Source: a virus. Taken from it: a stretch of 42,112 bases of DNA. The notes below the pieces were generated by a model, which worked only from the letters and a program-made list of their open reading frames with translations, was not told the DNA's origin and made no database searches. Both the position numbers and the translations under genes were made by a program. Below, in pieces: positions 792 through 37,302 of the stretch (position 1 is its first letter; every line of letters starts with the position of its first letter). The DNA is taken from positions 1 to 42,112 of the IMG/VR virus record IMGVR_UViG_3300036770_002930; one strand, given 5' to 3'.

Positions 792-1541
792 TTAGATAAC
801 CGAAACCCCTCTTTCTGAAACAACTTCTGAGGCTGCTTGGTTTGCCTTTTGGATAGCAAGCTTTATGTCCCTACTTTCCATGTAATAGAAGGCTAATGCT
901 GCTAAAAAGGTGTCTCCTGCCCCACTTACATCGTTTGTTATTTTCTTTGTGCCGGGGAAGTCCTGATCGTTATAGCGCGCACCCCTTGGCCCCAAAGTAG
1001 TAATAATCTTTTCCTTGTACATTTCGGTTTGAAGAAAATTTCTTTTAGACTCGTATTCGTTAAACTTAACAAAGTCAACGGAGTCTATGATGCCGCTCGT
1101 AAGCTCTTTTTTAGAGTCTAAAAAAACAACAGCCCCCTTTCTTTTTTCTTGGCAAATTTTCCAAATATCGGGAAGTGCTAAAAATCCTTTATCGTAATCG
1201 GATATTAGAATACAATCAGCACCCTTGATGATTCTAATGAGATATTCGTTTATGACAATTGGTTCTACCCTATCGTTTTCGTCAATTCGAATAAAGTAAT
1301 GATTTGACTTATCGTCCACTAATCTTGTTTTCTTAATGTCTCCGCTTGAGAAGTGTCCTACAACGGTTGCTTTTTTCTCAATAAGCGAAAAAAGGTTATT
1401 GTAGACGTTGTGGGCCATACCCTCGTTTTCTACCGACCTTATCGGCTTAAAGATTGGCACGGGGGCCTCTGGGCTGAGTCTTGCGACTTCCCCATACACA
1501 AATATGTCTTTACATTTTTCTCCAATTACTAAAAAGTTCAT
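792..1541 (-). CDS. PfkB-family sugar kinase, HldE N-terminal domain-like (heptose-7-phosphate kinase)
   Basis: This 249-residue protein is a ribokinase/PfkB-fold kinase most like the kinase half of HldE (RfaE domain I), which phosphorylates D-glycero-D-manno-heptose 7-phosphate at position 1. Visible support: the ARLSPEAPVPIFKP segment (about residues 20-33), which matches the HldE signature around RISPEAPVPVV, and the C-terminal anion-hole motif DVSGAGDTFLAALA, with the catalytic Asp in GAGD. It is shorter than a typical HldE kinase domain of roughly 315 residues, and the usual GG of the GGAANVA stretch is replaced by NEGMAHNV, so substrate binding may differ. The start overlaps the end of the HAD gene by 4 bases, implying translational coupling. 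Family is confident. Heptose as substrate is inferred from the signature and from the neighbouring nucleotidyltransferase, the other half of HldE. Confidence 0.8.
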   Translation of the reverse strand: MNFLVIGEKCKDIFVYGEVARLSPEAPVPIFKPIRSVENEGMAHNVYNNLFSLIEKKATVVGHFSSGDIKKTRLVDDKSNHYFIRIDENDRVEPIVINEYLIRIIKGADCILISDYDKGFLALPDIWKICQEKRKGAVVFLDSKKELTSGIIDSVDFVKFNEYESKRNFLQTEMYKEKIITTLGPRGARYNDQDFPGTKKITNDVSGAGDTFLAALAFYYMESRDIKLAIQKANQAASEVVSERGVSVI

Positions 1542-1828
1542 ATTTCTTCAATGCGTTTGGTTTTGTCACAAATCATTAAGTCGTAGTCAGGCTTGTGGTT
1601 CATTACTATGTTATCAAACTTACACCCCCAAGTCTTTAATTGAGCAAGCGTTAATGCCGTGTAGTCGGTCTGGCTTCTTTGTCCTCTTGCCGAGTAATAG
1701 GTTATATGATGACCTTGCTCGTGTAAGCGGTTTATTTTTTTTATGTTTTCGGGAATTGGTGAAGCTGTATTATAACTTCCCTCAACAGTATTGCAAATCG
1801 TTCCGTCTATATCAACGTAAATCTTCAT
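1538..1828 (-). CDS. Small HAD-superfamily phosphatase
   Basis: This 96-residue protein has the HAD motif I DIDGTIC at residues 6-12 with both catalytic aspartates, a Ser motif II (YYSARGQ, around residue 46), and a C-terminal region ending in DYDLMICDKT that supplies the acidic motif. It is cap-less and short, like the small phosphatases in bacterial capsule loci and unlike the longer GmhB (about 190 residues). In an activated-heptose pathway a phosphatase must remove the 7-phosphate after the kinase step, and this is the only candidate in the cassette. It overlaps the kinase gene by 4 bases and the preceding small gene by 17. Fold is confident; the specific substrate is inferred from context. 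Confidence 0.75.
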   Translation of the reverse strand: MKIYVDIDGTICNTVEGSYNTASPIPENIKKINRLHEQGHHITYYSARGQRSQTDYTALTLAQLKTWGCKFDNIVMNHKPDYDLMICDKTKRIEEI

Positions 1829-1997
1829 TCAGGGTTTCTATTAAAGTTTCAGCAATAGATACAGCCTCCTTACAAATCTCTTTCGGATCATCACAATCAG
1901 CCGCCGTAGCCAAAAGGATTGGCAACACTTGGATAGCAATATGCTCCCTTACATTCAGGTCTTTAGCTTTTAAGCCAGCGGTTAATTTCCTTTCCAT
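1812..1997 (-). CDS. Small conserved-type hypothetical protein
   Basis: This 61-residue, mainly helical, acidic protein contains the stretch REHIAIQVLPILLATAADCD. I do not recognise a named family, though similar short proteins occur in Bacteroidota phage genomes. The gene fits tightly into the leftward cassette, overlapping the cupin gene by 16 bases and the HAD gene by 17. That position, the uninterrupted frame and the same strand argue that it is real. No function can be given; its placement suggests cotranscription with the sugar genes and not necessarily a role in them. Confidence 0.55.
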   Translation of the reverse strand: MERKLTAGLKAKDLNVREHIAIQVLPILLATAADCDDPKEICKEAVSIAETLIETLNEDLR

Positions 1998-2344
1998 ACG
2001 CGGTAGCTGTCTGAGTCAAAGTGTTGGGTAGATATTTCAAAGATTTCACCATCGGTGACAGCCTTTAATTGATGGGGTAGCCCAATCGGGATAGTAACCA
2101 CATCACCCTCCTCTAAAGTCCCTGTGTGCTGTTCGGCGGTTTCGGTATCAATCCAAGTAAACTGGAATAGGCCTTTATTGACATACCACGTCTCTTGCTT
2201 AATAATGTGGTAATGCATGCTGAAAGAAAAACCCGCCTTGAAAACTAAAATTTTACCACAATAAAGCTCGTTATTTACAATTACTAATTCGTGGCCCCAT
2301 CCTTTAGGAATGTGGCAACATTTGCTATCAATCGGCTTCTTCAT
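1982..2344 (-). CDS. Single-domain cupin protein, sugar-phosphate isomerase-like
   Basis: This 120-residue protein is one cupin barrel. Motif 1 fits G(X)5HXH(X)4E(X)6G exactly (around residues 38-58, with MHYH and the following Glu as metal ligands). Motif 2 fits G(X)5PXGXXH (GDVVTIPIGLPH, around residues 80-91). Cupins of this size next to sugar-nucleotide genes are often called mannose-6-phosphate isomerase-like or sugar isomerase/epimerase. The protein keeps all visible metal ligands, so it is probably an active metalloenzyme. It overlaps the nucleotidyltransferase gene upstream (17 bases) and the small gene downstream (16 bases). A classical heptose pathway needs the SIS-fold isomerase GmhA, absent from this window; whether this cupin substitutes for it or modifies the sugar further is open. 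Confidence 0.7.
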   Translation of the reverse strand: MKKPIDSKCCHIPKGWGHELVIVNNELYCGKILVFKAGFSFSMHYHIIKQETWYVNKGLFQFTWIDTETAEQHTGTLEEGDVVTIPIGLPHQLKAVTDGEIFEISTQHFDSDSYRVWKGN

Positions 2345-2738
2345 TTCTTATTTTTTCAATAATACTTGTGGTAGAGTGGTTTGTTTTTTCGTAGAAGACA
2401 ATCTTTTTTGCACTTTCGGCACCTATGATAGTTTTGTCTTTGTAGTCTGAACCTATAACCAAAAAGTCTGGTTTAATTTTTTTGACAATAGAACGTAGCT
2501 CAAAGTCGGTGTCAAATATGAAAACCTTTTTTATGAATCTTAGCTCAGATAAAATATCAGCCCTAAATAATTCGTTGTTAACTGGTCTTCCCGGGCCCTT
2601 TAATTTCCTTACCCTTAAGTCGGTATCTATGCCAATATAAACATCGCCAAGGGTAGCCGCAAACCTAAGCAACTCAAAGTGTCCTTCGTGTAGAATGTCA
2701 AAGCATCCGTTGACCCAGACTCTTTTTTTTCGTATCAT
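2328..2738 (-). CDS. HldE C-terminal-type nucleotidyltransferase (RfaE domain II-like)
   Basis: This 136-residue protein belongs to the cytidylyltransferase-like family and most resembles the adenylyltransferase half of HldE, which joins heptose 1-phosphate to a nucleotide. Visible motifs: VNGCFDILHEGHFELL (residues 9-24) with the HxGH catalytic signature, KGPGRPVN (around 48-55), a LVIGSDY segment, and the end HSTTSIIEKI, which matches the STTxII ending of RfaE domain II. The product in known enzymes is ADP-heptose. Kinase and nucleotidyltransferase are separate genes here rather than one fused protein. It overlaps the basic 58-residue gene by 4 bases and the cupin by 17, so it sits in one translationally coupled string. 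Family is confident; ADP and heptose specificities are inferred. Confidence 0.82.
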   Translation of the reverse strand: MIRKKRVWVNGCFDILHEGHFELLRFAATLGDVYIGIDTDLRVRKLKGPGRPVNNELFRADILSELRFIKKVFIFDTDFELRSIVKKIKPDFLVIGSDYKDKTIIGAESAKKIVFYEKTNHSTTSIIEKIRNEEAD

Positions 2739-4414: not shown

Positions 4415-5227
4415 ATGAAAATTCCTTTAAAATACAAAACATCCTCCCCTGCGGGCGACCTAATTAGCTTCATGGCTGGGGTTAAGAAGATGTGGGAAGA
4501 CACGGGCAGAAAAGGGGTTGTGTATCAGCGTATAGGCATGCAGGGGGCTGGAACCTTTGATAGCATCCATCCCTTTAAAAACGAGTTTGACGAGCCTATT
4601 TGTATGTCGCAGTATATGTTCGACAATCTTCGCAGACTCATAATTTCCCAAGACTATATAGAAGATTTTCAAGTATTTAAAGGCGAAGATGTAGACTTAG
4701 ACTTTGACCTTATCCGCCAAGAAAGATACACCAATCAGCCTAGGGGAAGCCTTAACCGATGGTTTAACTATGTTTTCCCACAAATGGCATCAGACCTGTC
4801 GGTTCCTTATTTGTCGGTAAAAGAAGAGTCGAATGATAAGATTATCATCAACTTTACTCAGCGATATCGCAACTATCTGACTAATTACTTTTTCTTAAAG
4901 CAGCATCAGGAAAATATCTTATTTGCGGGACTTCCTAGCGAGCGAGACCTATTTTGTAGAACGTGGGATCTTGATCTTAAATTGCTTCAGGTGGATGATT
5001 TTTATGAGCTGGCGGCTTGGATTAAGGGCTGCAAATTTTTTCTTGGCAACCAGAGTTTTTGTTATCAGATAGCTGAATCCTTAAAAGTTCCTCGTATCTT
5101 GGAGATATGTCCTCAACTTCCGAATTGTATACCCGTAGGGCCAAATGGGTATGATTTTTATCATCAGGGAAGTCTTGACTATTATTTTGGGAAACTCGCA
5201 TCTTCCCCTAACATTAAAAACAAATAA
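4415..5227 (+). CDS. GT-B fold glycosyltransferase, GT9/heptosyltransferase-like
   Basis: This 270-residue protein has the layout of a short two-domain GT-B transferase related to GT9 (LPS heptosyltransferases). The N-terminal SPAGDLISFMAGVKKM segment resembles the GDxxxxxP loop at the start of GT9 enzymes. The central IIINFTQRYRN strand opens the donor-binding half, and the C-terminal FLGNQSFCYQIAESLKVPR stretch corresponds to the nucleotide-sugar binding IGxDSGxxHxAxxxxVP motif. After that, EICPQLPNCIPVGPNG is typical of phage members. It is first in a rightward string of sugar and methyl transfer genes. GT9 members use ADP-heptose, so it is a candidate user of the product of the 792-2738 cassette. 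Donor and acceptor are inferred. Confidence 0.65.
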   Translation: MKIPLKYKTSSPAGDLISFMAGVKKMWEDTGRKGVVYQRIGMQGAGTFDSIHPFKNEFDEPICMSQYMFDNLRRLIISQDYIEDFQVFKGEDVDLDFDLIRQERYTNQPRGSLNRWFNYVFPQMASDLSVPYLSVKEESNDKIIINFTQRYRNYLTNYFFLKQHQENILFAGLPSERDLFCRTWDLDLKLLQVDDFYELAAWIKGCKFFLGNQSFCYQIAESLKVPRILEICPQLPNCIPVGPNGYDFYHQGSLDYYFGKLASSPNIKNK

Positions 5228-5621: not shown

Positions 5622-5839
5622 CAATCCACGAACTACGCAATCCAATTGATGTTCATTGCCCACTTGGTTATGGCAAGGCTATAGCTTGGATAGATTACGG
5701 ACAAGACGTGAATACAGTATGGAAGGTAGTTTTTTATGAAGATGGTTCTGTGAGGAATTTCTATGATGACGAAATTCGTGTTTATCCTAATAAGATGAAT
5801 GGCGAAAATATTCAAGTACCTATAAACTGGAAACAATGA
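5618..5839 (+). CDS. Small hypothetical protein
   Basis: This 73-residue protein is likely a small beta-barrel or SH3-like fold judging from alternating strands (CPLGYGKAIAWIDYG, NTVWKVVFYEDGSVRNFYDD). I know no named family, but short proteins with a GYGKA and WKV pattern recur in Bacteroidota phages. It overlaps both neighbours by 4 bases (ATGA at each end), which supports translation within the sugar and methyl operon. Function unknown. Confidence 0.6.
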   Translation: MTIHELRNPIDVHCPLGYGKAIAWIDYGQDVNTVWKVVFYEDGSVRNFYDDEIRVYPNKMNGENIQVPINWKQ

Positions 5840-5961
5840 GAAAAGTAAGAGCAAAGCTTTTGAGAAGGGTCGCGAAGTCGATTACCGCTTCTTCCCCAGA
5901 CATGATGAAAAAAGTTTACCGCAGACTTAAAAAAACATGGAGTGCAAACAAATCTAAATAA
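5836..5961 (+). CDS. 41-residue basic peptide
   Basis: This short gene starts in an ATGA overlap with the previous stop. The product is strongly basic (about a third Lys and Arg): MRKVRAKLLRRVAKSI, then a Ser/Pro/Met stretch, then VYRRLKKTW. Very similar tiny basic proteins recur in Bacteroidota phage genomes near glycosyltransferase or structural genes. It overlaps the start of the fusion transferase by 20 bases. A nucleic-acid-binding role is plausible from charge alone; no fold can be claimed. Confidence 0.5.
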   Translation: MRKVRAKLLRRVAKSITASSPDMMKKVYRRLKKTWSANKSK

Positions 5962-7381
5962 CGTAACCCTTATCTGTGTAGATTGTGTAAACCACGGAGA
6001 AGCGGTAGCAGCCATAAGAAAAAGTATGGCTGAGTGCGACTTTGCTGCGGTTAAGTTCATTACAGACAAGCCATTTGAGTTTGAAGGAATTGAGGTGGTT
6101 AATATATCACCACTAAAGTCTAAAGAAGAGTACAGCCACTTTATGATTAAAGAGCTGTATAAATACTTTGATACAGACTATGTCCTCGTTATTCAAGCAG
6201 ATGGTTATGTGCTGAACGGGAAGTCGTGGCTGCCAGAATTTTTAGATTACGATTACACAGGATCGCCTTGGCTCTATTCCGATGGCAAAAACGTGGGTAA
6301 TGGCGGATTTTCTCTGAGATCAAAAAAGCTTCAACACGCACTTGCTTCAGATGATTTTATATTTGCCTCAGACCCCGAAGATCAAGCTATCGGGCGTTTA
6401 TATAGAGATTATTTGCAGCAGAAATACGACATTCGTTTTCCTTCAGAAGATTTAGCTGACAGGTTTGCTTACGAACTTCGAACCCCCATTTACGACACAT
6501 TCGGATTTCACGGAAGATTTCACAAACCCTTTCAGAAAACGGCTATCATTAAGCGTAGTGCATCGATGGGGGATGTTATTTTAGTAGAACCAGTTCTGCA
6601 CTATTTTCATAAAAAGGGTTATAGGGTTGTGCTTGATACGCCAGAGCCCTTTTATATGCTTTTTATAAACCACTACTTCCCCGTACACCACATAAAACAA
6701 ATCGACGGAAGACTATTACCAAGAGCAGAAAGATACAACTTGGACATGGCTTACGAAGCTTTCCCTACCCAAAATAGGCTTAAAAGCTATTATCAATTTT
6801 GCGGCATCAAGGACGGGGAAATGAGAAACCCCAAGCTATCAGTAGGTTTTCCCATACACCAAGGAACTAAGTTGTTCCAGAAGTCTTGCATCATCCACTT
6901 AGAGGGCATTAGGCAGTCTGGGAGAGGTGTTTTTGGGGTGGACTGGGAAAATGTGGTAGCCAATCTGCAAGCAAGAGGATATTCGGTTTTCCAAGTCGGG
7001 AAACGAAATGTACCCTTAATCAAAAACGCAATATACCTAAATACACAAAACGAGAACTTTCTGTGTTATGCGGTGGGAAGTGCTGACTTATTTATCGGCA
7101 TAGATTCAGGGGTTAGCCATATTGCCTCCGCCTTTAATGTTCCATCCATCTTGTTTTTCGGGAATACCAATCCTGAAATAGTTCACGTGGAACTATCTAA
7201 CAAAGTAATAATTACAAACCACTCCACCGATAACCCAATTTGCACGAAGCCTTTTTGTTGGCATACTCAGATAGGGGTGGAAAGCGAGCCTTGTTATATT
7301 GACGCAGAACTTCCCCCTTGTGCAAGATATACAACCCCACAAGTATTAAATGCAATAGATAAGGTAATCGAAATACTCTAA
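5942..7381 (+). CDS. Bifunctional glycosyltransferase: DUF5672 domain fused to GT9 heptosyltransferase-like domain
   Basis: This 479-residue protein joins two transferase domains. Residues about 1-200 match DUF5672, a GT-A-type family: VTLICVDCVNHGEA strand, DYVLVIQADGYVLN (acidic metal-binding site), YTGSPW, VGNGGFSLRSKKL, PEDQAI, and FGFHGRFH. Residues about 205-479 match GT9: the RSASMGDVILVEPVLHYF opening and the donor motif IGIDSGVSHIASAFNVPSIL followed by FFGNTNP. The best start is GTG at 5942, because the first DUF5672 strand begins a few codons later and no in-frame ATG precedes it. It overlaps the 41-residue gene by 20 bases and the next methyltransferase by one. Both domains keep key residues. 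Likely job: adding two sugars in sequence, one possibly a heptose. Confidence 0.78.
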   Translation: MQTNLNNVTLICVDCVNHGEAVAAIRKSMAECDFAAVKFITDKPFEFEGIEVVNISPLKSKEEYSHFMIKELYKYFDTDYVLVIQADGYVLNGKSWLPEFLDYDYTGSPWLYSDGKNVGNGGFSLRSKKLQHALASDDFIFASDPEDQAIGRLYRDYLQQKYDIRFPSEDLADRFAYELRTPIYDTFGFHGRFHKPFQKTAIIKRSASMGDVILVEPVLHYFHKKGYRVVLDTPEPFYMLFINHYFPVHHIKQIDGRLLPRAERYNLDMAYEAFPTQNRLKSYYQFCGIKDGEMRNPKLSVGFPIHQGTKLFQKSCIIHLEGIRQSGRGVFGVDWENVVANLQARGYSVFQVGKRNVPLIKNAIYLNTQNENFLCYAVGSADLFIGIDSGVSHIASAFNVPSILFFGNTNPEIVHVELSNKVIITNHSTDNPICTKPFCWHTQIGVESEPCYIDAELPPCARYTTPQVLNAIDKVIEIL

Positions 7382-7905
7382 TGGCGCACCAGTCTCAAAT
7401 AGATTTTATGCTCTTGGTGAAAAGCAGATTTCCTGAACGATTTCAAAATTGCAGGGTCTTGGATATAGGGTCTCTTGACTTAAACGGAAATAATAGATAT
7501 TTATTTGAAAATTACAGATATTTGGGCGTTGATATTGGGGATGGAAATAATGTTGATTTGGTTTGCCCGGGACATAGGGTAATTGATACTGTTGGCTTCG
7601 ATGTGGTTATATCAACAGAGTGCTTGGAACACGATGAGTACTGGTCCGAAACCCTAGCGAATATGGTTAACTTGACAAAAAGGGATGGGCTACTATTACT
7701 AAGTTGCGCGACCACGGGGCGACCAGAACACGGCACTAAAAAAACATCTCCAGCCGACTCTCCATTTACGAATGATTACTACAAAAATATTACCATAGAT
7801 GACATTCAGCTTGCCATAAACATACCGCTTGTTTTTAAGCAATACGAACTAAAAACCATATCAAACCCTTCTTGCGACCTTTACTTTTGGGGAATAAAAA
7901 AATAA
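7381..7905 (+). CDS. Class I SAM-dependent methyltransferase
   Basis: This 174-residue protein has a Rossmann-type methyltransferase core: motif I CRVLDIGSLDLNGN (around residues 24-37), an acidic end to strand 2 at YLGVDIGDG, motif IV-like VVISTECLEHDEYW (around 80-93), and GLLLLSCATTG. The C-terminal part after residue 120 carries a DYYKNITIDDI segment likely used in substrate binding. The DIGSLDxNG form is common in methyltransferases in glycan-modification clusters. It begins on the last base of the glycosyltransferase stop (TAATG), so it is coupled to it. Substrate unknown: sugar O-methylation is the favoured guess; DNA lacks support because no base-methylase NPPY or PC motif is present. 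Confidence 0.78.
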   Translation: MAHQSQIDFMLLVKSRFPERFQNCRVLDIGSLDLNGNNRYLFENYRYLGVDIGDGNNVDLVCPGHRVIDTVGFDVVISTECLEHDEYWSETLANMVNLTKRDGLLLLSCATTGRPEHGTKKTSPADSPFTNDYYKNITIDDIQLAINIPLVFKQYELKTISNPSCDLYFWGIKK

Positions 7906-7906
7906 T

Positions 7907-8428
7907 ATGGCTTCAGAAAGCAAAAAGATATATCCTAAAATTCAGCAATATTTGGCGGGAAATATTGTAGACATAGGTTGTGGAGACGAGCCCGTTAAAG
8001 AGGGTGTTGTGGGAATTGATGGCCGTAACTTCCCTCACGTCAACATACAAACCCCATCATTATACGACTTGGATACCAAATACCCAGAGTTATTGAACTC
8101 CTTTGATTGTTGTTTCAGCTCGCACGTCTTAGAGCATTTACCAGATCATTTTAAGGCCATACTTGAGTGGTCAAAACTCTTAAAACAAGGCGGCTATTTT
8201 ATCCTATACCTGCCAGATGGGAACTATTACCCAAACAAGGAAAACCCCGAGCATTTTCACGACACCAAGTACGAAGACTTTATTTTTTGGTTTAGGAGAG
8301 TTTTTTGTGGGGAAGCCTTGAACTTTACTGGGAAACCATATTTTTTACCCTATTTCGAAATTATTGAGAGCGGTCTGGATGTTGGGGAAAATAGATATTC
8401 GTTTTATCTTGTTGCAAAAAAAGTTTAA
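7907..8428 (+). CDS. Class I SAM-dependent methyltransferase (type 11-like)
   Basis: This 173-residue protein has a short methyltransferase core: motif I IVDIGCGDEPVKEGVVGID (around residues 20-38), motif CCFSSHVLEHLPDHF (around 67-81), and LLKQGGYFILYLPD. This is the Methyltransf_11 pattern. The C-terminal half (HFHDTKYEDFIFWFRR) is typical of members found in surface-glycan clusters. It begins one base after the previous stop and is the last gene of the sugar and methyl operon; its TAA stop is the first part of a promoter box for the next gene. Methylation of a sugar is the likely role, by context only. Confidence 0.78.
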   Translation: MASESKKIYPKIQQYLAGNIVDIGCGDEPVKEGVVGIDGRNFPHVNIQTPSLYDLDTKYPELLNSFDCCFSSHVLEHLPDHFKAILEWSKLLKQGGYFILYLPDGNYYPNKENPEHFHDTKYEDFIFWFRRVFCGEALNFTGKPYFLPYFEIIESGLDVGENRYSFYLVAKKV

Positions 8429-18969: not shown

Positions 18970-18983
18970 TCATTAACTTAGGT

Positions 18984-19009
18984 GAGTCGCCCAGTCACAT
19001 GGGCGGCTC
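18984..19009 (+). terminator. Hairpin after the capsid gene, likely terminator or attenuator
   Basis: GAGTCGCCC (18984-18992) pairs with GGGCGGCTC (19001-19009) through one G-U pair, with an 8-base loop. It lies 14 bases after the capsid stop and is followed by CCCTTTGTAATT, a poor T-run. This would reduce read-through after a highly expressed gene without fully stopping transcription of the tail block. Confidence 0.6.
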
Positions 19010-19026
19010 CCTTTGTAATTAAAAAA

Positions 19027-19923
19027 ATGGGAGTAATTTACAAAATAACGAGTCCTTCTGGCCGCCTTTATATAGGTAAAACGCAAAATTTGCGCAAGCG
19101 AATTAATTCCTATAAGTGTGATGTAAAGAAGAACAGAAAGGAGATTAAGCTGCACAATAGCTTAAGAAAGTATAGTTGGGATGCTCACATTTTAGAAGTG
19201 ATTGAAAAGGTTGAGGATTGCTTATTGGATGAAAGGGAAATTTACTGGATTGCCTTTTATAAAACCTATTGTTATGAATATCCAAGAGGATTAAATATGA
19301 CAAAAGGTGGAGATGGGCAGCGATCAACTTGGATGCACAATATAGAAAGGAGAAGGAAGCAGGCCCAAAGATTTTCCGGCAAAGGCAACCCTTTTTACGG
19401 AAAAACACATTCTGACGAAACAAAAAAGCATCTTGCCGAAGTGATGTCTAAACGCAATAAAAGCAAGGGTATTAAAGTTCCAGAATGGGCAGCCGAGAAA
19501 GGAAGAGAAGTTGTTAGAAGAGCTGTAATAATGTATAATTCAGATGGGGAGTTTTTGAAAGAGTATATCTCGGCAACACAAGCAGCTAAAGATTTGGGGT
19601 TTAGCAGATCTTGCATTAATGATGTTGTAAGGGGTAAGCATACCAATACGAATGGGTATGTTTTTCGCTACAAGACCGACAACTATCCATTAAAGATTGA
19701 TGTAGGTGTTATTAAAAGTAAAAATGTTAAACGACCAATTTTTTGCGAGTATGCGGGGGAAGTTATGGTATTCGATGGCTCTGAAGAGGCTTCAAAATAC
19801 CTTGGCATACCCAAGACCACTATCAATCGTGCAGCAATGTACAATAACGGCAAGCCTATAAGGGCTGGCTACAAATTTTTTTACAAAGAAAACCGCCCGC
19901 GTATTGCGGGGCGTGCAGCTTAA
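19027..19923 (+). CDS. GIY-YIG homing endonuclease with NUMOD DNA-binding repeats
   Basis: This 298-residue protein begins with a GIY-YIG domain: GVIYKITSPSGRLYIGKTQN (residues 2-21), with a downstream catalytic Glu in LLDEREIYWIAFYKTY. It continues with a NUMOD3-type segment (GKGNPFYGKTHSDETKK) and one or two NUMOD1-like DNA-binding segments (SATQAAKDLGFSRSCINDVV, and EEASKYLGIPKTTINRA). This is a standard free-standing homing endonuclease. I choose ATG 19027; a GTG at 18982 would run through the capsid terminator hairpin. It interrupts the late block between the capsid gene and the next structural gene, and is more A+T-rich in codons than its neighbours, consistent with separate acquisition. 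Confidence 0.88.
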   Translation: MGVIYKITSPSGRLYIGKTQNLRKRINSYKCDVKKNRKEIKLHNSLRKYSWDAHILEVIEKVEDCLLDEREIYWIAFYKTYCYEYPRGLNMTKGGDGQRSTWMHNIERRRKQAQRFSGKGNPFYGKTHSDETKKHLAEVMSKRNKSKGIKVPEWAAEKGREVVRRAVIMYNSDGEFLKEYISATQAAKDLGFSRSCINDVVRGKHTNTNGYVFRYKTDNYPLKIDVGVIKSKNVKRPIFCEYAGEVMVFDGSEEASKYLGIPKTTINRAAMYNNGKPIRAGYKFFYKENRPRIAGRAA

Positions 19924-30573: not shown

Positions 30574-33500
30574 ATGCCACAAAACGATCCACTTGGAATA
30601 TTAGGAGAACAGCCACCCAAAAAACAGGCTGATCCTCTAGGTATTTTAAAAAAAAAAGAAGTTTCTGGGGTAAAGTTAGAGACTGGTGGAGAAGTTGGTA
30701 TTTCAGAAGTCCTATCGGGAAAAGGATTGATTCCTCAGCAAAGAGCGGTATCTGAAAGCACTAAAATTAAGATACCAAAAGAACCAGCACCAAAAGTTCC
30801 CATTGCAGCAAAAAAAGAAGGACAAAGTTATATTTCTAATTTAGTATCATCTCTTGATAGAGGGTTTTATAAAAATCTTATAGGTAATCCAATTAAAGGT
30901 TTAGCAACCGTAGTTCAGTACGGAACATCTGCTATGACCGGAGGAAGAGTAAAAGAAGGGCCAGTAAGTGATGCCTTAAATAAGTTCGGAGATTTATTTA
31001 ACCAAGCTATTGATGAAGTAACTCCACAAGATCCAGAATTTAAAAATAGCTTATCAGACCAATTTGGGCAAGCATTAGGTCAAGTAGGTTCTTTGGTACT
31101 TACAGGTGGCTTGGGTGCTGGGGGAAGAGGTGCCGCTGCTATTGCACCAAAAGTAACTGCCGCTGTCCCAAGAACTATTGCAGGAAAAGTGGCCGCTAAA
31201 GCAGCTCCGGTTACGACAGCGGTAAAAGATTTAGCAAAAGAAATAGCTACTCCTGCATCTATTAGTGCAGGTCTTACAGTAGGTCAATCAGAATTTGATA
31301 GAGCAAAGCAAGCAGGTGCTAGCGATGAGCAAGCCTTTGAAGCTTTCTATAAAAATGCAGCAGTAGGTTCGGTGCTTGAAAAGATACCTGTAATGCAATT
31401 CCTAAAGAGATTTAATAATGCTACAAGCGGAGGAGTTGCAAATTATTTAAAGACTAAGGGTGTTGCGGGAATAACTGGCGGTCTGGAAGAAGCCACTACA
31501 GAAGTATTGCAACAAGTTTATGCAAATAAGACAGCACAGGATATCTACAATGTCAATCAGAATATCTTTGAAGGATTAGCGGAATCAGGAGGAATAGGAT
31601 TTGGAGTAGGCTTCCTCTTAAATGCGATGGGTGCGCAAGCAAAGATTTTAAGACAGCAAGGAAGAGAAGAAGAAGCGCAAACGGTAGAAAATCAAGAAGA
31701 AGAATTTAAGGCAAGGGCTGAAGGGAAAGAGTTTCTAGCTCCACCTCCTCCTGCCGCGCCTATAATTGAAGAAGTTGCGCCACAAGTTCCCGCTACACCT
31801 AGAATACCTAAAGAAAGAGCAGCTCAATTAAGAGAGCAAATTAAAGTTGAGGAGGTCGGGGAAGAAGCGGCACCACAAGTTCCCGCAGCACCCGCAAAAG
31901 AAGAAGTGGTAGGCATAGACGAAAAAGAAACTATTCGTCAAATGAAGCCGTTCACAGATGAAATGGCAAACATAGAAAGAGAGTTTGAAAACAGAGGATT
32001 TAAAATAGATACCGACTACGATAACGAAATTATTGTAACAGATAGACAAGGTAATATTCTAGACCCAGAAGAAATACCTGCTGATATAGCAGATCTTGCA
32101 GCAGCTTACGAACAAGCTACAATGAAGCTAGGAGAGTTCGATCAAGTAGCAAGAGAGAAGGCGTTAGCTGAATCAAGAAAAGTGGAGGAGGTTGTCGGGG
32201 AAGAAGTGGCACCAAAACTTCCCATAGCACCCGAAAAGACGCAAGCCGAAACATCTAAAGAACAAACAATAGAAACAGACCTTCTCATAGGGGGCCAAGC
32301 GGCTCAAAGAAGAAAAGATGGAAAGTATACCAAAGATGGAGTTGAGTTTGTAAGAAACGAAAAGGGGCAAGGCGTAGCATCTGATGTTACAGGAGAGATT
32401 CGATTTACTGACGAACCCAGTGGCAAAGGCATCGTTATCCCTTTTAGATATAAGCTAATAGAGGCGGAAACTTTACAACCTTCTCACCAAGGCGGAATCA
32501 GAAATCCTAATCACTTTATACCAGAGGCGCAGCCAAAAAATAGAAATGACGTAGGCAGTCTTATGGCAGAAGATAGCTTTGCTTATAATCCTCGTTTTGG
32601 TGAATTACGAGAATTCACAACTGCTTACTCTGGCGCTCCTGTAGTCAACGAAAGAGGAGAGGTTATTCAGGGTAATAATAGATCGGCAGGGCTTCGTAAA
32701 GGATATAAAGCTGGTAATCAGGAATATAAAAATAGCCTTGCTGAAAATGCTGACCAATTTGGTTTTACAAGAGAGCAAGTAGAAGGAATGAAAGAGCCTG
32801 TTCTTGTTCGGGAAGTTGCGGTAAGCGATGAAGGGGCTATAGAATTAGGTAATTATGATGTAAAAGACCTTGAAACGGCTGGTAAAAGAAGACTTGATGC
32901 AACAACTATCACAAGGCGTATGCCCTATGATATAAAAGCTAGAATTTCTGAACTTTTATTTACAGGAGAAGAAACTCTTAATCAGGCAATCCGCGCTAAT
33001 CAAAAACGACTTCTTGAGGTTTTAAGCCCTTATCTTAATCAAGCACAACGAAATACAATTACAAAAGAAGGGGTATTGACGGATGCTGGAATAAAAGATG
33101 TAGAAGATATAGTTAAGCATTTTTTATTTGACAACGGAGACACGGCTCTTCCAGACCTATTTGAAAATTTATCTGCCACGCAAAAGGAAGGTCTTAAAAA
33201 AGCTCTTCCTTACATATTCTCGACTTCCCCCGACAAAAGTATTGTACCCGACATACAAGAAGCCATACTAGCAGTAAACGACTTCAATGAAAGCGGAGCG
33301 GGAGACTTTAATGCTTGGTTATCACAAAGAGACATGTTCGCTGATGGTGCTACTCCAAGAGATAAGTACACACCCTTAGAAATAGAAATAGCCAGAACCC
33401 TTATAGAAACACGGACACAAAAGGAAATAGCCAAAAAATTCAGCGATTATGCTGATATAGTAAGAGACAAACCAGCCGATATGTTTGAAGCCGCAAGGCC

Positions 33501-36500
33501 GGGTAAAACAAGGGCTGAAGGAATAAAAGAAGTATTTAAAACCGAAGATTATGCAAAGCCAATTAGTGAGAGAGGCCGTAAAACGCTTGCTAGAGAGGAG
33601 AAGCCTACCCCAGAGCCAAGTCCTAAAGCAGGCGATGCTGCAAGAAGACTTGCAGAAAAGCTCCGCGAAGGTAAAATCAATAAGCCCGGAACAGCCAGAG
33701 CCAGCACAGGCTTCGATGCCGTCTGGGATGCAGCCCTCGAAATAGTAGCCACCTCTCTTGAGGCGGGTGCTAGTGTAGCCGATGCCATAGAAGCGGGACT
33801 GAAATATGTCAAGTCAACGGGCTGGTACAAAAAGGTAAAGAATAAGGAAGAGTTTGATCAACAATTTAAGGACGTATTAAATCAAGAATATGCCATTCAA
33901 GTCAAAGCAGCAGGTGAAGTTCCTGTACAGCCAGAAGCCGGAGTTAGCGAAGAAGTGGAGGCAGGAGTTCCCCCAACAAGACCTCCAAAAGCTTCCGAAG
34001 AAGGTGAAGTTGAGGGTCGCAAAGAAGAAAGGCGGTTCACCAAAACAATGATTGAGTCTCCTGAATTATTGAAGGCCGTTAAAAAAGGAGTTTCTGCGAC
34101 CCTTGAATACGCAAGACAGACTAACGCTATGTCTGTAGCTCAAGCACAAGAAGTTTTAGATGTGTTAGGGGAAGATAAGGCATACAATGTCCTTAAAGAC
34201 GAGCAAACAAATGGAGCGGTAAGGGTCGTACTTGGTCAAGTTCTAATCAAAAGATATAATGACCTTGCAAAAAAGGCTACCACTAAAGAAGAAAAAGACC
34301 TTTATATTAATGCAACTATTGATATTGCTGAATATGTAACTGTAAAGCTTGCTACCGATGCGGGGCAAACAATTCAAGCATTTAAACTTTGGGAGCAGTT
34401 AACACCAGAGGCGCAGGTTTTGGCAGCGGTGAAGCAGATTAAAAAATCTGCACGCAGAAATATTAATAAAGTTCGTAAGGATATTGATAGTATCGGAGAG
34501 AAGTTTAATAAGGCAAATGAGGAGGCGGTTAAAGAGATTTTAAAATCCGAGGAAGTAGACCAATCTGTTAAAAAAGATACTCAAGACAGAGTTAGCAAAG
34601 CAAAAGATAAAGCCGCTAAAGCAAGACAAAAGCGAGCCGATATCATAAACAAGTATAAAGGAAGAGGTGGGATTACGCTTACCACAGGTGGTTTAACAAA
34701 AGAAGGTATTGAATTTGTCGGGGAAGTCGCAGTAACATATATTGAAGAGGGTTTGGCAGAAATTCAAGTTATTGCAGAAAAAATATTTGCCGACATTAAA
34801 ACCATTACCGGGTCTTCCCCCAACGATAAAGTAAAACAAGAAGTATTTGATATTGCCAATAAAGAATTGTCTAAATCAGATATAAAAATAGTCAAGTCAG
34901 TAAAGGATCAGAAGCTAAAAATAAATGAAATAGCTATCAAGCACTTTACCGAAGTAGAGAAAATAAAAAAAGATCTTGCTCAAAAGTTTATAGACGAGGC
35001 AGATATGAGCGAAAGCAACGCTCAAGCCTTGGCTAAACGATTTGAAGATGCCTTTGATAGAGTAGTGTCTCGTAAAAAAGCAGAGATATTAGCAAGAGAT
35101 AAAAAGCGTTTTGATAGAATACAAAAAGCCGTTAATGAGCAGGCTGGTAAAAAAGCTGAAAAGAAGACTTTGCAAGATGAGATTATAAAGTATTCTAATC
35201 TTGGCGCTTTTAATTCCGATGAAATGCTCGACTTTTTATCTAAGAAATTTGATTTAGGTCAGCTTACTACAGAACAGGCGGCTAAGATACAAGAGCTTGC
35301 GGAGAAGATACAAAAAGCACCAGAGGGTAGTCCTAAAAGAGAGGCCACCGAAGATCTTTTGTCCTATCAGGCTGGTTTAAATAAAGGAAATTGGGGTGAA
35401 GTAGCGCAAGGGATTTGGTATGCAAATATTCTTTCTGGTTATAGAACTCACGAAAAAAACATCATTTCTACCTTCTTTAATTCTTTAGCGGATCTTGGCA
35501 CAGAAGTTATTGCTGACCCAAAAGGTGCGCCGTATCTTATTGCTGGATACGCAAGAGGACTTGGTAAAATAGGAATGTTAGAGGCATTGAGAACATTAAA
35601 AACTGGTAGGTCTCCTATTCATGTTAGAGCGGTAGAAATTCCAGATATTTTAGAGCGTAAAAAATTTGTTGGCGGAGGATACAATCCTGCAAACTGGTTT
35701 AAGTATGTAGGACGTGCAATGAAGGCGGAAGATATTCTTTCCTTTCAGGGACTTAAAGAGGCAAGAGCTTGGCAGCTTGCTCGCCGAGAGGCTGAAAAGT
35801 ATGGATTCAATACTTGGTCAAAAAGTGGCTGGAAGAAAGTAAATGAATTATTGCTTAATACACAGGAAAGATACGAGGTAGCCGCGGATCAAGCGGAGTC
35901 TGAAGGTCTTAAAACAGATACAAGGGAATGGAAAAGAAGGGTGTATGAATTAATGGAAAATAGCCGTCCAGAGGCTATGACCGAGGACGCTTACAACTTT
36001 GCTGCTCATGGTACCTATAACTACAATTCTGACGGAACGCTTGGGGCGGTTACAAATGCCATATCTAAAGTCCTTGATATAAAAGTAGGAGGTGTACAAC
36101 CGGGACGCTTTGTCGTTCCATTTACTCGCATTATTACTAATGTAGTAAATAATGCTCTTGATTATAGCCCCGTAGGAATTATTAGGGCCGCTAAAGGAGC
36201 AAGAGGATTTAAGTCTCTTGATGAATTAAGCCTTACCAAAGGAGCTTACAAGCCTCTTACCCCAGAGCAAAGAAGAGTAGTTTCTATTAAAGCCGCGGTA
36301 GGAATTTCATTTGCCGCAATTATGCAATATATGGTTTCTGAAGGGCTAATAGACCTTTCTGGGGAAGGGCCAGAAGATGAAAAGAAAAAGGCTCAATTAA
36401 GGGAACAGGGATGGCAGCCGTATTCAATAAAAATAGGCGATACTTGGTATTCTTATTTTTATACACCCCTTATATTTACACTTGGTTGGATGGGAAATCT

Positions 36501-37302
36501 TAATGACGCTGCCAAGTACGGGAAAGAGGACGAGGAAACATTGTTAAGACGGGCAAGTATAGCTTCTTTAAAGTTTGGAGGGATGCTTGCTGATATGACG
36601 TGGATAAACTCGGCATCAACTATCCTTGCGGTTTTAACAGAGCCAAGGATTAATGAACAACAAAGAAGAGCAGAAGTTGCCCTTTCTGGGATGGCAAGAG
36701 GGTTTGTGCCTTTTGCCCAAAATATTACGCAAATTACGCAGGCTTACAATAGCACCTTCCAAATACCTGCCAAGCAAGTTAACAATTCGTGGGAGGCTTT
36801 TTATCAGGATATACCTATTGCCAGAAATTCCCTCAACAATAAAATAAACGCCCTAGGAGAGCCTGTAATAAAGGATATAGACATTATGTGGTCTAAAGAA
36901 AAAGGTGATCCAGTATGGAGTTATTTAACCAATAAAAAAGGATGGGTAGCCCCGCTGAATAAGAAAACAGTACTTGTCTTTGATCAAAAGCTTAGACAAG
37001 ACAGGCCTCTAACGGATGATGAATTTTATGAATTGTCTAAATTAAGGGGGGGCATTATCAAAAAGAACGTAGAAGAGTTAATGCAAAACGGATATGTGGT
37101 AAAAAGGGAGGGAAAAGATATTAGCGTCGCTGCCGAGAATTTAACCTCAAGCGAGCTAAATGATATATTGTCAAAAAGAATAGAACCATTTGCTACTAGG
37201 GACGCTAAGAAAAAACTATTTGGTGATTATCGAAAAGAAAAAGAGCAACAAGAAAGTAGCTTAGGCTCTCTTAAAAGTCAAAAATGGTCATTGGTAGACT
37301 AA
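30574..37302 (+). CDS. Giant polyvalent virion protein with DdrB-ParB-like domain
   Basis: This 2242-residue protein is probably packaged and ejected with the DNA. Order: short N-terminal DPLGIL repeats; hydrophobic Gly/Ala-rich helices (about 150-365, e.g. ALGQVGSLVLTGGLGAGG); Pro-rich linkers with three VAPQVPA-like repeats (about 400-555); a domain (about 615-800) with YKLIEAETLQPSHQGG, QPKNRND, SGAPVVNERGEVIQGNNRSA, matching DdrB-like ParB-superfamily domains; a helical follow-on (to about 985); long Lys/Glu coiled coil (about 1100-1560); a conserved LSGYRTHEKNIISTFFNS segment (about 1625); and a membrane-like helix VGISFAAIMQYM (about 1905) in a hydrophobic last part. DdrB is an antirestriction protein of P1. 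T7 gp16 is the positional analogue. No lytic transglycosylase or polymerase motif was found. Confidence 0.72.
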   Translation: MPQNDPLGILGEQPPKKQADPLGILKKKEVSGVKLETGGEVGISEVLSGKGLIPQQRAVSESTKIKIPKEPAPKVPIAAKKEGQSYISNLVSSLDRGFYKNLIGNPIKGLATVVQYGTSAMTGGRVKEGPVSDALNKFGDLFNQAIDEVTPQDPEFKNSLSDQFGQALGQVGSLVLTGGLGAGGRGAAAIAPKVTAAVPRTIAGKVAAKAAPVTTAVKDLAKEIATPASISAGLTVGQSEFDRAKQAGASDEQAFEAFYKNAAVGSVLEKIPVMQFLKRFNNATSGGVANYLKTKGVAGITGGLEEATTEVLQQVYANKTAQDIYNVNQNIFEGLAESGGIGFGVGFLLNAMGAQAKILRQQGREEEAQTVENQEEEFKARAEGKEFLAPPPPAAPIIEEVAPQVPATPRIPKERAAQLREQIKVEEVGEEAAPQVPAAPAKEEVVGIDEKETIRQMKPFTDEMANIEREFENRGFKIDTDYDNEIIVTDRQGNILDPEEIPADIADLAAAYEQATMKLGEFDQVAREKALAESRKVEEVVGEEVAPKLPIAPEKTQAETSKEQTIETDLLIGGQAAQRRKDGKYTKDGVEFVRNEKGQGVASDVTGEIRFTDEPSGKGIVIPFRYKLIEAETLQPSHQGGIRNPNHFIPEAQPKNRNDVGSLMAEDSFAYNPRFGELREFTTAYSGAPVVNERGEVIQGNNRSAGLRKGYKAGNQEYKNSLAENADQFGFTREQVEGMKEPVLVREVAVSDEGAIELGNYDVKDLETAGKRRLDATTITRRMPYDIKARISELLFTGEETLNQAIRANQKRLLEVLSPYLNQAQRNTITKEGVLTDAGIKDVEDIVKHFLFDNGDTALPDLFENLSATQKEGLKKALPYIFSTSPDKSIVPDIQEAILAVNDFNESGAGDFNAWLSQRDMFADGATPRDKYTPLEIEIARTLIETRTQKEIAKKFSDYADIVRDKPADMFEAARPGKTRAEGIKEVFKTEDYAKPISERGRKTLAREEKPTPEPSPKAGDAARRLAEKLREGKINKPGTARASTGFDAVWDAALEIVATSLEAGASVADAIEAGLKYVKSTGWYKKVKNKEEFDQQFKDVLNQEYAIQVKAAGEVPVQPEAGVSEEVEAGVPPTRPPKASEEGEVEGRKEERRFTKTMIESPELLKAVKKGVSATLEYARQTNAMSVAQAQEVLDVLGEDKAYNVLKDEQTNGAVRVVLGQVLIKRYNDLAKKATTKEEKDLYINATIDIAEYVTVKLATDAGQTIQAFKLWEQLTPEAQVLAAVKQIKKSARRNINKVRKDIDSIGEKFNKANEEAVKEILKSEEVDQSVKKDTQDRVSKAKDKAAKARQKRADIINKYKGRGGITLTTGGLTKEGIEFVGEVAVTYIEEGLAEIQVIAEKIFADIKTITGSSPNDKVKQEVFDIANKELSKSDIKIVKSVKDQKLKINEIAIKHFTEVEKIKKDLAQKFIDEADMSESNAQALAKRFEDAFDRVVSRKKAEILARDKKRFDRIQKAVNEQAGKKAEKKTLQDEIIKYSNLGAFNSDEMLDFLSKKFDLGQLTTEQAAKIQELAEKIQKAPEGSPKREATEDLLSYQAGLNKGNWGEVAQGIWYANILSGYRTHEKNIISTFFNSLADLGTEVIADPKGAPYLIAGYARGLGKIGMLEALRTLKTGRSPIHVRAVEIPDILERKKFVGGGYNPANWFKYVGRAMKAEDILSFQGLKEARAWQLARREAEKYGFNTWSKSGWKKVNELLLNTQERYEVAADQAESEGLKTDTREWKRRVYELMENSRPEAMTEDAYNFAAHGTYNYNSDGTLGAVTNAISKVLDIKVGGVQPGRFVVPFTRIITNVVNNALDYSPVGIIRAAKGARGFKSLDELSLTKGAYKPLTPEQRRVVSIKAAVGISFAAIMQYMVSEGLIDLSGEGPEDEKKKAQLREQGWQPYSIKIGDTWYSYFYTPLIFTLGWMGNLNDAAKYGKEDEETLLRRASIASLKFGGMLADMTWINSASTILAVLTEPRINEQQRRAEVALSGMARGFVPFAQNITQITQAYNSTFQIPAKQVNNSWEAFYQDIPIARNSLNNKINALGEPVIKDIDIMWSKEKGDPVWSYLTNKKGWVAPLNKKTVLVFDQKLRQDRPLTDDEFYELSKLRGGIIKKNVEELMQNGYVVKREGKDISVAAENLTSSELNDILSKRIEPFATRDAKKKLFGDYRKEKEQQESSLGSLKSQKWSLVD

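Follow-up and report, generated by a model that had tools for sequence, protein, structure and literature searches.

A cupin that most likely replaces GmhA in a phage cassette predicted to make nucleotide-heptose

Introduction

When a phage carries enzymes resembling those that activate heptose, and none resembling the isomerase with which their pathway ordinarily begins, it is reasonable to ask whether the route is truly incomplete or whether another protein performs the missing step. We consider this question for the viral record IMGVR_UViG_3300036770_002930 of IMG/VR, the entirety of which (42,112 bases, hereafter the window) was analysed, and in which four leftward open reading frames (ORFs) at 792-2738 of the minus strand encode a short HldA-like kinase, a small HAD phosphatase, a cupin and an HldC-like nucleotidyltransferase. 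In the textbook pathway activated heptose synthesis begins with GmhA, which is also a drug target, and no SIS or GmhA match was found among the window ORFs scanned. A preliminary description of this DNA had placed four overlapping catalytic genes here, had seen in them a phage-borne heptose-activation cassette lacking GmhA, and had called the pathway near-complete. The genes are indeed found at this place and on this strand, and the kinase and nucleotidyltransferase are closest to HldE/HldA/HldC by profile (the kinase also by fold). A heptose pathway is thus supported; "near-complete", however, appears to understate the case, as the cupin most likely replaces GmhA in the phage cassette, judging from its residues, relatives and gene neighbours, so that the pathway is probably complete.

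Predicted pathway

The four genes most likely constitute a compact and complete route from sedoheptulose 7-phosphate to nucleotide-heptose. The starting sugar would be drawn from the host's pentose-phosphate pool, and the cupin would act on it as the isomerase that opens the pathway, which is the step of GmhA. The short HldA-like kinase would then phosphorylate C1, the small HAD phosphatase would remove the 7-phosphate, and the HldC-like nucleotidyltransferase would form a nucleotide-heptose, probably ADP-heptose; a nearby GT9-like glycosyltransferase probably attaches the heptose to an acceptor on the surface of phage or host, and methyltransferases may add further decoration. We infer each of these activities, along with the order of the steps, the base (A), the heptose configuration and the acceptor, from the sequences and their relatives. 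We consider it probable that nucleotide-heptose is the product of the phage cassette and that the cupin serves as its isomerase. On balance we also favour the broader proposition that the heptose pathway of DPANN archaea, of Binataceae-type bacteria and of many environmental phages starts with a sedoheptulose 7-phosphate isomerase that has a cupin fold and no relation to GmhA, and that with the kinase, HAD and nucleotidyltransferase this enzyme forms a self-contained phage pathway leading out of the pentose-phosphate cycle.

The scheme follows the same four-step logic as the Gram-negative ADP-heptose pathway (GmhA, HldA/HldE-N, GmhB, HldC/HldE-C), with homologous kinase and nucleotidyltransferase, a HAD-type phosphatase and a GT9-like transferase nearby, and differs from it in the cupin in GmhA's place, a small HAD that is not of the GmhB type and a kinase some 60 residues shorter than HldA.

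Preservation of the cassette

Adjacent genes of the string share 4-17 bases, and comparison of the window with related contigs gives ratios of nonsynonymous to synonymous polymorphism (pN/pS) of 0.09-0.29 in the four catalytic genes, which denotes purifying selection. Each of the four proteins has its own family in PHROGs. All four enzymes occur together in 11 of the 11 cyanophage or marine-virus loci read (L009-L019), and again in L001-L004, the four contigs from the phage family to which the window belongs; given this recurrence and the purifying selection, we do not regard the cassette as a product of chance. In the close relative L001 the HAD gene (5714-6004) contains a frameshift after the first motif, due to either assembly error or decay.

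The cupin as a candidate aldose-ketose isomerase

The cupin (1982-2344, minus strand; 120 amino acids) matches Cupin_2 with an E-value of 8e-8. The best solved relatives of a phage-cupin profile are the D-lyxose isomerases 2y0o (E 2.7e-7) and 7nzo (E 4.9e-7), with a match that spans the whole domain, while L-ribose isomerase and phosphomannose isomerase rank lower. With a broader cupin profile, quercetinases score equally over a shared core motif, but the match over most of the domain stays with D-lyxose isomerase. The score against the Pfam family Lyx_isomer (PF07385) is 17.1 bits, under the cut-off of 20.8.

In the D-lyxose isomerase of Thermofilum, the residues K62, H75, H77, K86, E88, H143, E156 and D163 contact sugar and metal, and activity is lost when the residues corresponding to K86, E156 and D163 are mutated (PMC8378251). 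In a HMMER alignment, K31, H44, H46, K49, E51, H91, E103 and D110 of the window cupin align to the eight ligand-contacting residues of 7nzo/7nzp; the metal ligands (H, H, E, H) and the substrate residues (K, K, E, D) are all kept. Across 185 distinct cupins, H44, H46, K49, H91 and E103 are each present in 185/185, K31 in 183/183 and E51 in 184/185, and D110 is present in 168/185, with E in its place in 15. The window cupin thus has in common with the cupin-type D-lyxose isomerases (2y0o; 7nzo/7nzp) and with type II phosphomannose isomerase the cupin barrel, the H-H-E-H metal ligands, the substrate lysines and the acidic pair, and these enzymes carry out aldose-ketose isomerase chemistry on aldoses of the same C2/C3 configuration. 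The C2 and C3 configuration on which such isomerases act is common to lyxose, mannose and D-glycero-D-manno-heptose. Relative to D-lyxose isomerase the window cupin is shorter, about 29% identical and strongly linked to heptose genes, and its predicted substrate is a phosphorylated C7 sugar.

Searches of the open-access literature for cupins in connection with heptose and sedoheptulose 7-phosphate isomerase, and for heptose and lipopolysaccharide (LPS) in Woesearchaeota, found no paper, and the best-ranked open-access papers on GmhA or phosphoheptose isomerase do not mention cupins. It would seem that in archaea, bacteria and phages alike this cupin stands in for GmhA, a role not recognised before.

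The cupin and GmhA in cellular genomes

A genome scan with the cupin led to the DPANN archaea, where it lies beside full-length HldA, GmhB, HldC, SDR and GT9 genes without GmhA; one such operon (L063) reads cupin-HldA-GmhB-HldC-GT9. We examined 148 genomes of that phylum, 33 of which have a strong HldA. Ten of the 33 have the cupin, 17 have a strong GmhA, none has both and six have neither, such that strong GmhA is found in 0/10 cupin genomes versus 17/23 of the others (Fisher p 8.7e-5, related genomes not being independent in this test). The cupin was present in 0/40 of the HldA-negative genomes checked. Overall it occurs in 33/371 genomes, just one of which also has GmhA over the cut-off. 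The six HldA-bearing archaeal genomes with neither strong GmhA nor cupin (G160, G156, G028, G078, G119, G117) may reflect missing data or a third isomerase.

The exchange can be seen within single operons, as L069 has cupin-SDR-HldA-GmhB where L115 has GmhA-SDR-HldA-GmhB; the shared genes are 64-69% identical, while the first genes have no similarity to each other. In an HldA tree these two HldA proteins group together (support 100/99), and cupin-linked and GmhA-linked HldA are intermixed. Gene fusions are found on both sides of this exchange: HldA and the cupin share a single ORF in L097, L098, L099, L101, L102 and L104, a 475-amino-acid archaeal protein (L100, 952-2379) joins GmhB, cupin and HldC domains, and L089 has a cupin-SDR fusion, whereas elsewhere the fusion partner of HldA is GmhA (L111, L112) or a SIS protein (L113). 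The DPANN ADP-heptose-like operons (L055, L057, L063, L097-L102) therefore combine the same cupin family with HldA, GmhB and HldC, often with SDR and GT9, and are unlike the phage cassette in being cellular, in their full-length HldA and GmhB and in their frequent gene fusions.

A further 32 cupin-bearing genomes belong mostly to Binataceae and planctomycetes, and 26 of them have HldE, 20 of these 26 without a GmhA match at 1e-10. In Binataceae the cupin does not adjoin HldE, so the support there is one of genome content only, and since the bacterial genomes were also picked for having the cupin, we take their counts as supporting evidence only. The cupin of the Binataceae loci (L021-L045) often follows a large gene that looks by eye like a sugar-phosphate transferase, not HldE; the genomes concerned do have HldE, and most of them lack GmhA.

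Kinase, nucleotidyltransferase and phosphatase

The kinase (792-1541, minus strand; 249 amino acids), a short HldA-like member of the PfkB group, is a predicted heptose 7-phosphate 1-kinase. In profile searches it matches the HldA domain TIGR02198 at 3.5e-31, the next unrelated family being ribokinase at 3.6e-10, and it matches phrog_8133 at 6e-69. Its GAGD catalytic motif is intact, with D210 invariant. The top fold match of its structure model (mean predicted local distance difference test score, pLDDT, 88) is HldA (4e8y, E 7.8e-18), followed by a ribokinase-type fold (3.9e-13). In the HldA tree the phage kinases form a single clade with the archaeal cupin-linked kinase L108 (support 99/98), on a long branch apart from full-length HldA. 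The nucleotidyltransferase (2328-2738, minus strand; 136 amino acids), a predicted heptose 1-phosphate adenylyltransferase bearing HxGH and STTxII motifs, matches the HldC domain TIGR02199 at 7.3e-31 and phrog_7878 at 2.4e-32, with glycerol-3-phosphate cytidylyltransferase the next unrelated enzyme at 5e-10.

The family search and structure comparison that the preliminary description had proposed consequently return HldA and HldC as best families and HldA as the best kinase fold, but with scores below the NCBI curated equivalog cut-offs (108.5 bits against 345 for TIGR02198; 106.9 against 181.5 for TIGR02199). Because the matches fall so far below these cut-offs, both phage proteins are to be regarded as divergent members, closest by sequence to the heptose families. 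The same description had spoken of split HldE halves; both HldE-type proteins are real, although a separate HldA and HldC as kinase and nucleotidyltransferase is the normal state in many bacteria, and the separation is in that respect not unusual.

The phosphatase (1538-1828, minus strand; 96 amino acids) is a small capless HAD protein and a predicted heptose 1,7-bisphosphate 7-phosphatase. Its motif set is complete (DIDGT, SAR, KP, D...D), the motif residues are invariant in our alignment (A4), and it matches phrog_1238 at 6.8e-24. No GmhB model was among its matches at E<=1, and the only related match was a weak one to EcbF-BcbF (8e-6). In L043 a HAD of the same family is fused to a nucleotidyltransferase domain, which supports a place for the HAD in a nucleotide-sugar pathway.

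Distribution in phages

By tblastn the kinase is found in 33 phage records, nearly all of them cyanophages or marine viruses. The order of the genes is shuffled between phages (at least five orders), and in L009-L019 an SDR epimerase and a NodU-type carbamoyltransferase often accompany them. The cassette enzymes correspond to T4-GC 303-308 of Sullivan et al., which have been listed as cyanophage "LPS genes" of unknown function since 2010 (PMC3037559), and the cassette is accordingly not unique, being already known in outline from cyanophages. In P-SSM2, S-SM2 and S-SSM7, GC 304 (nucleotidyltransferase), 305 (kinase), 306 (HAD) and 307 (cupin) are homologues of the window enzymes; unlike the window phage, cyanophages usually add the SDR epimerase (308) and often the carbamoyltransferase (303). 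The cupin had been described beforehand as standing in an unusual place, a view that does not survive this comparison, since it is a frequent cassette partner in phages and its recurrence across phage loci rules out an unusual passenger.

Scans of IMG/VR returned at least 600 stretches for the cupin and at least 600 for the kinase, and co-occurrence was counted among listed loci with full flanks. Among the matches listed, cupin, kinase and nucleotidyltransferase are together in 21/37 cupin-probed and 22/42 kinase-probed environmental viral loci, an association that is strong but not universal. GmhA, which the preliminary description had proposed to look for elsewhere in the genome, gave no TIGR00441 match in nine complete cassette-bearing cyanophage genomes or in six viral contigs.

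In the cyanophage records L009-L017 the cupin is named "cysteine dioxygenase" and the HAD "phosphoheptose isomerase", and both names clash with motifs and relatives. We set the former aside, as profile searches place sugar isomerases nearest among proteins of solved structure and the isomerase residues are retained; the latter is ruled out by the HAD motifs. A "transketolase central region" protein is encoded ahead of the cassette kinase, immediately or with one gene in between, in S-SM2 (L009, 5972-7180) and P-TIM68 (L010, 6841-7986), and could feed or modify the sugar pool. Cyanophage-like cassettes also appear in contigs assigned to planctomycete, archaeal or Rhodobacteraceae bins (L035, L036, L040, L056, L078), which are probably misbinned viral contigs.

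Alternative explanations

A number of observations weigh against the proposed pathway. If any SIS match is counted as GmhA, the DPANN contrast becomes 2/10 versus 17/23 (p 0.007), and the cupin and a GmhA match are found together in four Binataceae genomes and one archaeon (G221); most of the genomes are, moreover, fragmentary metagenome-assembled genomes, and the cupin-bearing bacterial ones were chosen for the cupin. The kinase and nucleotidyltransferase lie far enough under the equivalog cut-offs that their substrate may have drifted, and the phage HAD is not of the GmhB type. The cupin model (pLDDT 93.6, cupin fold) fits many small cupins (CapF, Pac13, KdgF, phosphomannose isomerase, lyxose isomerase) at Z 14-15.5 without singling out the isomerases, and because so many match about equally, structure alone leaves its function unfixed. 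Among the environmental viral matches listed, 17/42 kinase-probed loci have no cupin within 6 kb, and the HAD is often missing nearby. Last, in L257, L259, L260 and L043 (6571-11456) the set of kinase, nucleotidyltransferase and cupin is accompanied by a weak SIS protein, HAD and SDR, although the SIS of L043 is marginal (3.7e-5) and belongs to a second, GHMP-kinase cassette, with the GHMP kinase lying between. As one isomerase should serve both branches, the product of the cupin in phages may differ from that proposed. The arrangement in these four loci looks as if two heptose routes had been paired.

Could drift have brought the phage enzymes to a different 2,3-cis aldose phosphate, such as mannose 6-phosphate, and hence to another nucleotide sugar? 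The divergence of kinase, HAD and nucleotidyltransferase would allow it, the cupins also include D-lyxose isomerase and type II phosphomannose isomerase, and some phages have the kinase without the cupin. We nonetheless consider it unlikely, given that the best scores of kinase and nucleotidyltransferase are to heptose families, that the archaeal cupin homologues sit with full-length HldA, GmhB, HldC and GT9, and that a GT9-like gene accompanies the cassette in the window family, with weak counterparts in several other phages. Somewhat more doubtful still is a cupin that serves as a later tailoring enzyme or regulatory sugar-binding protein (a nucleotide-heptose epimerase, for example), with GmhA activity coming from the host. 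Cupins are commonly epimerases and binding proteins, a few genomes have the cupin plus GmhA or SIS, and the kinase loci without a cupin noted above would be expected; yet the archaeal operons already hold an SDR epimerase and all the other steps, leaving just the isomerase unassigned, and the one-for-one slot swap, the alternative GmhA fusions and the retained isomerase catalytic constellation speak for an isomerase. That the cassette is decaying cargo ("stuffer" DNA) with no function in infection, a possibility left open for the cyanophage LPS genes by Sullivan et al. 2010 (PMC3037559) and one to which the L001 frameshift could be added if it is not an assembly error, seems to us very improbable in view of the low pN/pS of the four genes, the retention of the gene set in shuffled orders among unrelated phages and the preservation of catalytic residues.

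If the cupin does act as the isomerase of a nucleotide-heptose pathway, a second, unrelated enzyme for the GmhA step would account for organisms that have HldE without GmhA, and would alter the way in which genomes are judged for heptose capacity. Each of the unexplained cyanophage "LPS genes" would gain an assigned role in a four-step pathway open to test, their two annotations would be corrected, and phages would seem to tap the pentose-phosphate pool when they remodel glycans of the surface or the virion.

Phage, host and neighbouring genes

The window encodes terminase, portal and virion proteins, and because the terminases nearest to its own come from Flavobacterium and Cellulophaga phages (27% identity), the host is probably a Bacteroidota bacterium. 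As a 42-kb record without T4-like relatives, the window phage is in this respect distinct from the T4-like cyanophages. An effect on mammalian innate immunity through ADP-heptose had been raised for a gut-dwelling host; nothing seen here ties the host to a gut.

A two-domain protein on the plus strand (5942-7381) combines DUF5672 (6.8e-19) with a glycosyltransferase-family-9, heptosyltransferase-like domain (Glyco_transf_9, 2.4e-8; 34.0 bits, above the Pfam cut-off of 22), and profile comparison aligns it with archaeal GT9 (E 3.6e-5, 71%). It is a candidate user of the nucleotide-heptose. Two S-adenosylmethionine (SAM) methyltransferase-like proteins follow on the same strand, one at 7381-7905 with a weak UbiG match (3.4e-4) and one at 7907-8428 with a weak methyltransferase match (8e-5); a gene similar to the second adjoins the cassette in Sf-CH8 and S-T4. 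Both the DUF5672-GT9 gene and the second methyltransferase gene recur in the phage family where contigs extend far enough. Elsewhere, GT9 near the cassette is marginal in S-CAM1 and weak, mostly under the cut-off, in S-CAM3, P-SSM2 and L005-L007, so that its presence fits heptose use, weakly so outside the window family. A 270-amino-acid protein (4415-5227, plus strand), conserved in the phage family (alignment A8), is possibly a very remote GT9-like glycosyltransferase, with a probability of just 19% in profile comparison with GT9.

Within the operon, two further minus-strand genes of unknown function have counterparts in L001-L004, namely a 61-amino-acid ORF between HAD and cupin (1812-1997; phmmer 1e-16 to 2e-19; pN/pS 0.35) and the 58-amino-acid first gene (2735-2911; phmmer 1e-19 to 1e-26). 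A homing-endonuclease-like gene (18982-19923; PHROG match 1.2e-27) stands among the virion genes, and the late gene region contains a very long ORF of 2242 amino acids (30574-37302).

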